Shown here: positions 24,016 through 25,597 of the stretch, in pieces | Layout of the letters: every line of letters begins with the position of its first letter | Position numbering within the stretch: the stretch's first letter is position 1 | DNA from: Aequorivita sublithincola DSM 14238 | Lineage (GTDB): Bacteria > Bacteroidota > Bacteroidia > Flavobacteriales > Flavobacteriaceae | Assembly: GCF_000265385.1 (NCBI RefSeq) | Contig: NC_018013.1 | Span: 2,011,001 to 2,075,000 of the forward strand | DNA: 64,000 nt | Direction of reading: 5' to 3' | Notes under the pieces: generated by a model | Told to the model about the DNA's origin: nothing | The model's input: only the letters and a program-made list of their open reading frames with translations | Database searches by the model: none | Program-made: the position numbers and the translations under genes

Positions 24016-24465
24016 ATGAGCTTACAAGAAAAGGTAATGGAGGCGATGAAAGCCGCAATGAAAGCGAAAGACACGCAATCTTTAGAGGCTTTGCGTTCCA
24101 TAAAATCTGCCATGCTTTTGGCACAAACCGAAACAGGTTCTAAGATGGATTTGTCTGAAGAAGATGAACTGAAATTACTTCAAAAACAAGTAAAACAACG
24201 AAAGGACAGTGCTGCAATTTACACAGATCAAAACCGTCCAGACCTTGCGGAACCAGAATTGCTTCAAGCAAAGGTTATAGAGCAGTTTTTGCCACAACAA
24301 TTAAGTGAAGAAGAAGTAAGTAGGATTGTAGATCAAGTTATCTCTGAAACAGGAGCCTCATCAATGGCAGATATGGGAAAAGTAATGGGACTGGTAAGTG
24401 CTAAACTTGCTGGTAAAGCAGATGGAAAAACCATTTCTACAGCAGTAAAGACTAGGCTTTCGTAA
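24016..24465 (+). CDS. GatB/YqeY domain protein
   Basis: Cytoplasmic protein of 149 residues, entirely the GatB/YqeY domain related to the tail of the amidotransferase subunit GatB, thought to contact tRNA. Recognisable features are MKAAMKAKD, LRSIKSAM and the C-terminal MGKVMGLVSAKLAGKADG segment. The biological role of free YqeY proteins is not known. It lies between ftsZ and a tRNA-Arg gene. Confidence 0.93.
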   Translation: MSLQEKVMEAMKAAMKAKDTQSLEALRSIKSAMLLAQTETGSKMDLSEEDELKLLQKQVKQRKDSAAIYTDQNRPDLAEPELLQAKVIEQFLPQQLSEEEVSRIVDQVISETGASSMADMGKVMGLVSAKLAGKADGKTISTAVKTRLS

Positions 24466-24469
24466 ATTT

Positions 24470-24490
24470 CAGTTATCAGTTATCAGTTAT
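24470..24490 (+). repeat. Heptamer tandem repeat CAGTTAT
   Basis: Three perfect CAGTTAT units begin five bases after the yqeY-like stop codon. Confidence 0.85.
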
Positions 24491-24535
24491 GGGTTAGTAG
24501 ATAATTAGGTTGAATTGAACTACTAAAAATTATTT

Positions 24536-24563
24536 TTGAATATTGAATATTGAACATTGAATA
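24536..24563 (+). repeat. Heptamer tandem repeat TTGAATA before tRNA-Arg
   Basis: TTGAATA, TTGAATA, TTGAACA, TTGAATA end eight bases before the tRNA. The same word family precedes ftsI at 9743. Confidence 0.85.
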
Positions 24564-24571
24564 CTAAATAC

Positions 24572-24645
24572 GGCCGCGTGGCGCAACTGAATAGCGCATC
24601 AGATTTCGGCTCTGAGGGTTGGGGGTTTGAATCCCTTCGCGGTCA
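24572..24645 (+). tRNA. tRNA-Arg (anticodon TCG)
   Basis: A full 74-base cloverleaf: acceptor GGCCGCG/CGCGGTC, D stem GCGC/GCGC, anticodon stem TCAGA/TCTGA with loop TTTCGGC (anticodon TCG, positions 34-36), T stem GGGGG/CCCTT and discriminator A. No CCA is encoded. The D loop has A at position 19 and the T loop has T at 56 where G and C are normal, so the tertiary 19-56 contact is kept as an A-U pair. The Arg identity base A20 is present. A terminator follows. Confidence 0.92.
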
Positions 24646-24655
24646 CTACTTAAAA

Positions 24656-24680
24656 GGTCTCGATTTTCGAGATCTTTTTT
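24656..24680 (+). terminator. Terminator after tRNA-Arg
   Basis: GGTCTCGA and TCGAGATC form an 8-bp stem with one G-U pair, followed by six T. It separates the tRNA from the nuclease gene that starts 11 bases later. Confidence 0.8.
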
Positions 24681-24690
24681 ATTTTGTAAT

Positions 24691-24933
24691 ATGTATTACG
24701 TATACGTTTTAAAGAGCTTAAAAGATGGTCGACTTTATAAAGGAATGACTTTGAATTTAGATGAACGTATTATTCAACATAATTCAGGTAAAAATAAATC
24801 CACGAAAGGATTTATTCCTTGGTTCTTAATTTATTTTGAAGAATTTGAATTCAGGAAAGATGCTAGAGTTCGTGAAAAATATTTTAAGTCGGGTGTTGGT
24901 AGAGAGTATTTACATAGAAAGTTGAGAAGTTAG
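24691..24933 (+). CDS. Small GIY-YIG nuclease family protein
   Basis: Protein of 80 residues that is a single GIY-YIG domain, like YhbQ/UPF0213 members. The N-terminal YYVYVL and YKGMT replace the GIY and YIG motifs, followed by NLDERIIQHNSG with the conserved Arg, PWFLIYFEEF, and the metal-binding Glu in VREKYFKSG. No other domain is attached. It lies exactly between two copies of tRNA-Arg, the second interrupted, which suggests the nuclease and the tRNA duplication belong together. Substrate and activity are unknown. Confidence 0.88.
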   Translation: MYYVYVLKSLKDGRLYKGMTLNLDERIIQHNSGKNKSTKGFIPWFLIYFEEFEFRKDARVREKYFKSGVGREYLHRKLRS

Positions 24934-24937
24934 CTTT

Positions 24938-25031
24938 TGTCGCGTGGCGCAACTGAATAGCGCATCAGACCTGCCTGCCGGCAGGCAGGTTTCGGCTCTG
25001 AGGGTTGGGGGTTTGAATCCCTTCGCGGTCA
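24938..25031 (+). pseudogene. Second tRNA-Arg copy, interrupted by a 20-bp palindrome
   Basis: From CGCG at 24941 onward this repeats the tRNA at 24572 base for base, except for 20 inserted bases at 24970-24989 between positions 31 and 32 at the anticodon stem-loop junction. The first three acceptor bases are TGT instead of GGC, which breaks or weakens pairs 1-72 to 3-70. No bacterial splicing route for such an insert is known, so it is probably not a working tRNA. Confidence 0.8.
24970..24989. repeat. 20-bp perfect palindrome inside the tRNA-Arg copy
   Basis: CCTGCCTGCC followed by its exact reverse complement; with the neighbouring A and T it reads as 22 bp. The intact copy shows that the insertion added exactly these 20 bases and no target duplication is visible. 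The size and GC content resemble other intergenic palindromes in this window, although the sequence differs. Confidence 0.9.
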
Positions 25032-25043
25032 CTATTAAATGAA

Positions 25044-25097
25044 AAGGTGGAAAAAAGTTTTTCGAGCTTGCTCAAAAATTTTTTTCCGCCTTTTTTT
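25044..25097 (+). terminator. Terminator after the second tRNA-Arg copy
   Basis: AAGGTGGAAAAAAG and TTTTTTTCCGCC pair with a few G-U pairs around a GC-rich inner stem, followed by seven T. Confidence 0.75.
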
Positions 25098-25231
25098 CTG
25101 TCTTTTCGTAAGAAAGCACATTAAACAATCCCACCATTAAAAATGTGTTAATTAATACACCTTTAAGAGCCATCCCGCCCAACAATTTTTAATTTTAATA
25201 ATTAAAATAAGTTAAACTAAATACATATATC

Positions 25232-25597
25232 ATGTTCACTGTTGTTAACGGACTTCCTGAAGATATTTTAGGAATACTGATTTCCGGAAAAACCACAAAA
25301 GAAGATTATGATCAACTAAATCCACTATTGGAAAAGCACAAAATGGAACACGGAACCATTAAGTTTTATGTTGAAATTGACGAACTACAATATACGGCAA
25401 AAGCCATGTGGGAAGATTTTAAGGATGGTCTGCATTATTGGCGCGATATAAAATTCGTAGCCCTTGTTACAGATAAAGGTTGGTTAGAAAAAACAATGGA
25501 GGTATTTGGAGCTATAATTCCTGGAATGAAGGTAAAAGGCTTTGATCTGAACGAACGCCAAGAAGCCTTAAACTGGTTGAAAACCCAAAAGGAGTAA
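25232..25597 (+). CDS. SpoIIAA-like (STAS/SEC14-fold) protein
   Basis: Small cytoplasmic protein of 121 residues resembling the SpoIIAA-like family (DUF3478). Recognisable features are the N-terminal VVNGLPEDILGILISGKTTKEDY, the central VEIDELQYTAKAMWEDFK and the terminal strand and helix around VKGFDLNERQEALNWL. No phosphorylatable Ser context like that of true anti-anti-sigma factors is obvious. It is a single gene; the 200 bases before it are AT-rich and hold the tRNA terminator. Its role is unknown. Confidence 0.82.
   Translation: MFTVVNGLPEDILGILISGKTTKEDYDQLNPLLEKHKMEHGTIKFYVEIDELQYTAKAMWEDFKDGLHYWRDIKFVALVTDKGWLEKTMEVFGAIIPGMKVKGFDLNERQEALNWLKTQKE

Follow-up and report, generated by a model that had tools for sequence, protein, structure and literature searches.

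Why does one tRNA gene stand twice, once whole and once broken, around a small nuclease gene in the chromosome of Aequorivita sublithincola DSM 14238? The locus lies in a stretch of 64,000 nucleotides (contig NC_018013.1, positions 2,011,001 to 2,075,000 of the forward strand), here called the window, in whose own numbering coordinates are given. An intact tRNA-Arg(TCG) gene (24572..24646, + strand) is followed by a gene for an 80-residue GIY-YIG nuclease (24691..24933, + strand) and by a second copy of the tRNA that is split by a 20-bp palindrome; all parts described in the original prediction, which was made from the sequence alone, are present. The best reading of the compared sequences is an element of roughly 300-390 bp that would invade tRNA genes and leave an intact tRNA. 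It is probably mobile and homing-like, a compact unit that settles in tRNA genes with a single-domain GIY-YIG nuclease as its sole gene. Comparison across genomes reveals a recurring unit of nuclease gene, palindrome (CC[T/C]GCC...GGC[A/G]GG) and partial tRNA, which is situated in or beside a tRNA gene of the same strand; a complete tRNA remains alongside in most loci. In the tRNA-Arg/Leu family the palindrome splits the left-over copy at preferred points, mostly at TA^G in the D arm or at the 5' border between anticodon stem and loop.

The intact tRNA-Arg(TCG) is the sole tRNA gene called by ARAGORN in the whole 64 kb and scores 56.3 bits with the Rfam tRNA model. The nuclease open reading frame (ORF) matches PF01541 at 49.8 bits (cut-off 22.6) and is the only ORF of at least 50 residues wholly between the two tRNA copies. 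The second copy begins with tRNA positions 4-32 (24941..24969, + strand; positions 1-3 are lost) and ends with positions 33-75 (24990..25032, + strand). The palindrome CCTGCCTGCCGGCAGGCAGG (24970..24989, no strand assigned) is located between linear tRNA positions 32 and 33, at the end of the 5' anticodon stem; no tRNA base is lost, and the palindrome extends to 22 bp when the flanking A and T are counted. Two more bases are common to both copies after tRNA position 75. The identical stretches of the copies are 29 and 43 bp long at offsets of 366 and 386 bp, so the duplication is not due to chance. Chance and assembly artefact are ruled out, the layout being found in independent assemblies that include the single-contig genomes G000 (the window genome), G005 and G009. 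A count of CCTGCCTGCCGGCAGGCAGG over the 3.52 Mb single-contig genome yielded one exact place and two places with one mismatch. If insertion took place between positions 32 and 33, the inserted element would be the 386-bp stretch 24604..24989 (+ strand); the intact tRNA would then consist of positions 1-32 with the native 5' flank and of element-borne positions 33-75 (24604-24646).

The same site was located in 27 of 28 genomes of the genus Aequorivita with the aid of an upstream ORF (24016-24465 in the window), which we take to be YqeY-like. The tRNA-Arg(TCG) is assembled at 25 of the sites, and at two the contig ends earlier; the contig of G027 ends inside a split tRNA and nuclease start. 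The nuclease is present at the site in seven genomes, all of which have partial tRNA copies. The site is empty in 18 genomes: one tRNA is present, the nuclease is absent, and any further tRNA match is limited to 10-20 bases. Empty and occupied alleles of one site (18 empty, 7 occupied, 2 cut off) are a pattern expected of a free-standing homing endonuclease gene, and the proposed link between nuclease and tRNA duplication was borne out here (7/7 occupied vs 0/18 empty sites). Two tRNA copies without a nuclease, which would have spoken against that link, were seen at this site in none of the 27 genomes. The intact tRNA beside the window nuclease is the same as the tRNA of several empty sites, and it is the left-over copy that is split. 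Two layouts are found. In type A, that of the window, the nuclease follows the intact tRNA, with a terminator of its own; G000, G004 and G020 have this arrangement. In type B the nuclease precedes the intact tRNA, and its stop codon is often inside the tRNA gene. At the genus site a nuclease lies between a split 5' part and the intact tRNA in G017, G010, G009 (twice) and G005 (twice), and G005 additionally has a decayed nuclease piece after the tRNA. The inserts vary as well, being either the 20-bp palindrome or a 40-bp CCCG...CGGG hairpin between tRNA positions 22 and 23. In the nuclease tree the proteins of G009, G005 and G010 group with that of L250 (support 98/94), and the protein of G017 joins loci from Leeuwenhoekiella and Zunongwangia (99/96); the remaining three are unplaced. 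This placement, together with the differing layouts and inserts, suggests that the single genus site was invaded repeatedly. Among the sites counted as empty, that of G006 (L132) carries a single tRNA-Arg(TCG) with an atypical acceptor (GGCCCCG/CGGGGTC), and its terminator resembles those beside the nuclease in G004, G005 and G020; the site is perhaps the relic or scar of a lost element.

The flanks indicate which copy is resident. Local alignment scores against empty sites were compared with the maximum of 200 shuffles, with G020 left out. The best scores 3' of the broken copy are 42 for G000 and 37 for G004 (shuffle maximum 17). On the 3' side of the intact copy the two genomes reach only 19 and 22 (maxima 18 and 21), the best match of both being the atypical G006. 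Upstream of the intact copy the likeness to empty sites is weak (28 and 25, maxima 23), and upstream of the broken copy none was detected in these two genomes. The terminator-like hairpin and T run 3' of the intact tRNA (24652..24681, + strand, by eye) differs from the hairpin that follows the tRNA in most empty sites, as judged from the downstream sequences of 25 sites. A second terminator-like hairpin (25041..25098, + strand, by eye), 3' of the broken copy, is common to most nuclease-free relatives (score 42, shuffle maximum 17). It is probably the native terminator of the resident tRNA gene, and 24990..25032, to which the native 3' flank is attached, probably represents the 3' end of that gene. 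In type B it is the intact copy that carries the native 3' flank (G017 33, G010 29, G009 61; maxima 17-18), and foreign sequence directly precedes that copy. The sequence before the first broken copy is only weakly native at the type B sites (22, 21, 17 and 22 vs maxima of 16, 21, 16 and 20). In a control with six empty sites, five matched other empty sites downstream (52-66), and G022 scored 10 with a shuffle maximum of 19. Since the native flanks are divided between the copies, portions of the resident tRNA gene appear to flank the nuclease on either side. The resident gene thus seems to be split and not simply copied. The original prediction is supported in part: its nuclease unit tied to a tRNA and a partial tRNA duplication stands, but its view of the second copy as simply redundant is not supported, given the 3' flank of that copy (42 vs 17); the native 5' flank at the intact copy is weaker (28 vs 23). 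Tandem duplication alone was also considered and is insufficient: the boundary flanks differ between the copies, and the units recur in other genera.

Relatives were searched for with an alignment of seven tRNA-Arg-linked nucleases. At least 546 were confirmed, and the best 80 were kept, giving 79 distinct loci; L176, L181 and L216 repeat L017, L018 and L019 and were retained in the 79 and dropped from the insert and tree counts. By record title the loci are mostly from Bacteroidota, with four from candidate-phylum bacteria (L219, L234, L245, L247) and one from Chlorobiota (L244). A tRNA is found within 450 bp in 70 of the 79 loci, always on the nuclease strand, so that the expected GIY-YIG genes next to tRNA genes were encountered along with the empty single-tRNA sites of the genus. 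For the first listed tRNA of these 70 loci, the nuclease is directly before it in 47, after it in 14 and elsewhere in 9. A permissive search recovered a partial tRNA copy in 67 of the 70; in 62 a copy of 15 nt or longer lies no more than 350 bp away. Within the same distance 71 of the 79 loci have the palindrome family CC[TC]G[CT]C...G[AG]C[AG]GG and 32 the exact 20-mer; the family is present in 1 of 134 control windows (930 bp, same contigs, unmatched for intergenic position). In a one-per-genus sample, which may overlap with the genomes of these 79 loci, a tRNA is nearby in 24 of 29 loci. The prediction could have been refuted by nucleases at unrelated sites. Such cases are few in this set: only the candidate-phylum loci L219 and L245 (2/79) have neither a tRNA nor the palindrome family nearby, although other small GIY-YIG clades of the window genome do lie away from tRNAs. 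L219 and L245 have short matching flank motifs unlike those of other loci. A reverse search of 199 Flavobacteriaceae genomes, blind to the nuclease, used two DNA patterns for a palindrome-split D arm that were modelled on known cases and cover D-arm inserts only; it found 7 and 8 places in 9 genomes, and all 15 split D arms are situated 14-45 bp from a nuclease.

In type B loci whose tRNA starts near the stop, the stop codon is inside the tRNA gene in 28 of 43, and in 23 of those 28 it is the TAG of tRNA positions 8-10 or 21-23. Units also occur in tandem, up to eight in one stretch. L285 (G200:C34 6300-10600) has eight tandem GIY-YIG units of ~364 bp with tRNA fragments between them; its spacers contain TCCGCC...GGCGGA-like palindromes, and ARAGORN calls no tRNA in the stretch. 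The broken and intact 5' parts were compared for type B only, in 43 loci, 11 further loci yielding no comparison. No difference was seen in 27 (in six of these over just 9 bases), 13 show 1-2 differing bases, and L184, L204 and L248 show three or more. A model in which the element always brings its own tRNA is weakened by these 27 identical pairs. In L184 (Zunongwangia pacifica) the D-stem of the functional tRNA-Arg(TCG) is not that of the split copy, and one half may come from another lineage; L184 and Aequorivita G004 and G020 are possible foreign-tRNA cases.

Clean inserts, defined as matched on both tRNA sides, starting with CC[TC], ending with GG and at most 60 nt long, numbered 57 and came from 54 loci; TA^G accounts for 39, GA^T for 11 and other points for 7. 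Among 52 loci labelled on the nuclease tree, the insert is in the D arm (between positions 21 and 22 or 22 and 23) in 34, in the anticodon arm (between 32 and 33) in 9, near positions 9 and 10 in 5 (one of them between 14 and 15), in the T arm in 2 and at other points in 2; it is 20 nt long in 29. Insert position requires 11 changes on the weakly resolved tree (100 shuffles: minimum 15, mean 17.2) and tRNA isotype 15 changes (minimum 21, mean 23.8), so insert position appears to follow the nuclease tree. The original prediction had the palindrome enter the redundant copy later, by chance. This part is not supported: the palindrome family recurs at the same tRNA positions beside the nuclease in distant bacteria, and because of this recurrence the palindrome looks like a part of the unit. 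A passive association is regarded as improbable. It would have a nuclease inserted beside a tRNA with duplication, after which unrelated palindromes gathered in the unconstrained copy, perhaps kept because they prevent the truncated tRNA from misfolding with the good one. Several palindromes are indeed present in some left-over copies (L288, L289, L078), the palindrome takes the place of tRNA bases in some clades (see below), and palindromes of the type TCCCGAN4-9TCGGGA are common in the genus (5-71 per genome vs 0-3 for the reversed pattern in the 28 genomes). Against such gathering speak one palindrome family at one tRNA position in distant genera, split D arms beside the nuclease in 15 of 15 cases, an insert position that tracks the nuclease tree, and the concentration of multi-copy palindromes in nuclease-positive genomes that is described below.

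PF01541 (GIY-YIG) is the only Pfam match of the window protein and covers residues 1-67 of 80; NCBIfam and the defence-system collection PADLOC gave no match for it. The columns invariant among 36 aligned proteins include Y5, Y16, G18, R26, H30 and E62, and the AlphaFold2 model has a mean predicted local distance difference test score of 93.4. The Pfam match, conserved residues and fold match place the protein in the GIY-YIG superfamily. Its nearest solved relatives by profile and fold are UPF0213 and SLX1 proteins (1zg2, 1ywl, 7cq2, 6sei), of which only 1zg2 has a fold-search E-value below 0.001; I-TevI and UvrC are weaker fold matches. Selection was estimated in 12 sequence pairs. dN/dS (the ratio of nonsynonymous to synonymous substitution rates) is 0.07-0.18 in eight of the nine pairs with defined dS, and 0.55 in the near-identical ninth. 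The remaining three have saturated dS (pN/pS 0.20-0.25), including both pairs that contain the window gene (0.25 and 0.22). By these ratios the nuclease family is under purifying selection and is maintained for its protein. ANKLE1 and SLX1-type GIY-YIG enzymes are reported to cut branched or cruciform DNA (PMC10287932, PMC9071465). Hairpin or cruciform DNA is proposed as the substrate of the present enzyme because its SLX1-type relatives are structure-specific. Among distant GIY-YIG proteins, those of L006 and L078 gave weak matches to PDC-S14, and that of L078 scored 23.2 bits with TIGR01453 (group I intron endonuclease), below the cut-off of 56. Carriage by phages or plasmids was considered as well: no nuclease match was found among 50,697 phage records, and the only plasmid matches were four Sinorhizobium records (including NZ_CP104135.1) at ~40% identity; in three of the four the GIY-YIG stretch has no annotated feature. 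IMG/VR, whose contigs are listed as viral, has six loci, of which L291 is accompanied by an ARAGORN tRNA-Arg(ACG). The flanks of L292, L294 and L295 in the same collection are tRNA-like or palindromic by eye.

A role at the RNA level is considered very improbable. As a structured RNA, the palindrome-split tRNA would then serve the nuclease as leader, decoy or guide, or else tRNA itself would be the substrate of the enzyme. The Rfam tRNA model accepts the split copy of the window (24938-25031, 32.2 bits, gathering threshold 29), which raises the odds slightly, while ARAGORN makes no call for it in the window; some altered copies elsewhere are called tRNA by ARAGORN (L078, L090). The split tRNA of type B occupies the native tRNA start, where the nuclease message would have it as leader. 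Against such a role, the length, position and completeness of the split copy vary widely, and the fold is that of a DNA nuclease family. In L090 (~1740-1817) a tRNA-Arg(TCT) copy has the anticodon stem TCCCGA/TCGGGA with the loop kept, and ARAGORN still calls a tRNA.

The palindrome is also found away from the unit. In the genus, 10 of 28 genomes have 1-16 copies of the exact 20-mer. In the family set (199 genomes, 198 genera, some counted copies adjoining a nuclease) at least one exact copy is present in 27 of 59 genomes with the nuclease and in 9 of 140 without it; for two or more copies the figures are 14/59 vs 1/140 (Fisher p = 1.4e-7). The palindromes are thus dispersed and linked to the presence of the enzyme, as required of a system of the type formed by RAYT enzymes and repetitive extragenic palindromes (REPs), at no more than 19 copies per genome. 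Fifteen solo palindromes were examined, of which 8 are flanked by A and T; none has an ARAGORN tRNA within 600 bp. RAYT/REP palindromes insert without target duplication, and the inserts of the tRNA-Arg/Leu family likewise show none. GC-rich palindromes were counted around 92 GIY-YIG loci with at least 200 bp of flank, excluding duplicates and frames of 200 residues or more, taking tandem units separately and including ordinary terminators. The mean is 1.32 per locus vs 0.10 at 400 random places, and at least one is present at 55% of loci vs 9% of places, the control being unmatched for intergenic position. From these observations a nuclease that spreads small non-coding mobile hairpins genome-wide may be envisaged, with tRNA genes, rich in hairpins, as preferred targets at which the driver gene remains. 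The solo copies away from tRNAs (15/15), the multi-copy palindromes of nuclease-positive genomes, the inserts without target duplication and the palindromes amid other small GIY-YIG clades all speak for it. It is nevertheless judged rather unlikely, as 32 of the 59 nuclease-positive genomes have no exact palindrome, no solo copy (0/15) is within 5 kb of a mapped nuclease place, and RAYT genes are described as always lying between two inverted REPs (PMC2817692), whereas here one palindrome on one side is usual.

A similar layout is found in the genus at tRNA-Leu(CAA), tRNA-Met, tRNA-Val(TAC), tRNA-Arg(TCT) and tRNA-Phe, with tandem units spaced ~350 bp. In the window genome, the GIY-YIG gene of L006 (G000:C1 1350242-1353457) has an intact tRNA-Arg(CCT) on one side and, on the other, a partial copy that bears the palindrome CCCCGAAGCCTCGGGG at the anticodon arm. 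The locus also has three 3' fragments of the tRNA in tandem, whose T loop contains a CCCCGA...TCGGGG hairpin. L078 (G005:C1 1926600-1931500) comprises five tandem tRNA-Val/GIY-YIG units, one copy of which carries a run of TCCCGAAGCAAGTTCGGGA hairpins (8 on one side), mostly with a 24-bp period. The small GIY-YIG genes of L002, L003, L004 and L005 in the window genome are away from tRNAs, each amid a different family of repeated, partly palindromic sequences.

For the homing-like element that is favoured here, the following course is envisaged. The nuclease would cut the tRNA gene, or the hairpins and cruciforms that tRNA genes as well as the palindrome may form. Repair of the break would copy the element into the tRNA gene and regenerate one intact tRNA; the host would survive, and the copy at the cut site would be left split by the palindrome. 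Mobility and cutting are thus deduced from sequence comparison, as are the transposition and homing of the model, and this is the first of several points that weigh against it. The intact tRNA beside the nuclease keeps the supposed target, and the model leaves unexplained how self-cutting is avoided. The intact acceptor stems of G004 and G020 differ on both strands from the genus type (21/25 sites), which simple insertion between positions 32 and 33 does not predict. The 5' parts mostly agree within a genome, although acceptor stems vary from one genome to another. Mere transfer of the tRNA part between hosts does not fit this, and local duplication or gene conversion would be needed. In the tRNA-Phe, Arg-CCT, Val, Met and Arg-TCT clades the palindrome replaces tRNA bases by eye, for example five T-loop bases or the anticodon arm, and is no clean insert. 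Insert length class ignores the tree (8 changes, shuffle minimum 8), and the tree itself is weak (82 columns, 52 of 84 rows labelled, 24 of 81 inner branches well supported). Finally, 9 of the 79 loci have no ARAGORN tRNA nearby (several are contig ends or arrays), 8 have no palindrome of the family, and the query consisted of tRNA-linked nucleases, with controls unmatched for intergenic position.

A bolder version is put forward tentatively, at less than even confidence. The locus would represent a new class of mobile DNA. A structure-specific GIY-YIG nuclease, acting alone, would cut tRNA genes that form hairpins and so mobilise both itself and palindromic hairpins. It would split the resident tRNA at TA^G or at the anticodon-arm border and regenerate an intact one, the tRNA gene serving as landing site and shelter. 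Such a class would be a non-HuH counterpart of RAYT/REP, distributed across Bacteroidota and reaching some candidate-phylum bacteria. No description of a tRNA-linked unit of GIY-YIG nuclease and palindrome was found in the open-licence literature, judged mostly by title and the start of the abstract. If the proposal is true, a nuclease of ~80 residues and a 20-bp hairpin suffice to colonise tRNA genes in distant bacteria. The unit would rank with the smaller autonomous elements that have been proposed, and target-rescuing homing drives would have a natural counterpart in it. It would also be a candidate driver for the dispersed palindromic repeats of Bacteroidota and would account for some tRNA pseudo-copies, and the spread of short palindromes without a HuH transposase could be tested by a simple biochemical assay.

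Several known systems resemble the unit in part. Integrase elements with tRNA attachment sites restore one end of the tRNA gene that they enter; the present unit encodes no recombinase, only the GIY-YIG ORF lying between the window copies at the 50-residue threshold. Rickettsia palindromic elements are palindromic inserts in genes, and to our knowledge no nuclease is linked to them. UPF0213 and SLX1 proteins are the nearest solved relatives of the nuclease, and no tie of theirs to mobile elements or tRNA genes turned up, no dedicated search having been made. Group I introns in bacterial tRNA genes are reported to home by means of an encoded endonuclease (PMC3984707) and in both respects resemble the element as proposed here. 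Unlike an intron between the exons of one functional gene, the unit has a separate intact tRNA beside the interrupted copy, and no Rfam group I intron match was obtained in 24400-25300 at E up to 1. RAYT/REP is the nearest system in anatomy, with a small nuclease-type gene tied to short palindromes that are also dispersed. RAYTs, however, are described as HuH tyrosine enzymes related to IS200/IS605 (PMC2817692), whereas the present enzyme is of the GIY-YIG type, is tied to tRNA genes and usually has one palindrome; a palindrome on each side is found at some loci and at some non-tRNA GIY-YIG genes, one side being usual in the tRNA-linked family. SegB, a free-standing GIY-YIG homing endonuclease of T4/T6 whose gene likewise stands beside tRNA genes, is nearest in behaviour. 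It is reported to cut inside tRNA genes (SITE-seq peaks, with RAWTSGAAC at 23/83 sites), and the tRNA and a truncated segB form tandem amplifications, the 5' end of the tRNA sharing microhomology with the 3' end of segB (PMC13096335). SegB is phage-borne, and the available part of that report mentions neither a palindrome nor a palindrome-split tRNA copy. The present unit, by contrast, is chromosomal, is situated at single tRNA genes of many genera, and encodes the catalytic domain alone (80 residues), with cutting as a predicted activity. Membership in SegB-type or RAYT/REP systems is not established, because the defining HuH feature of RAYT is lacking and homing of the unit is putative. The unit is best compared with homing-type tRNA-linked nuclease elements, of which it may be a variant, with a fair chance of constituting a class of its own.

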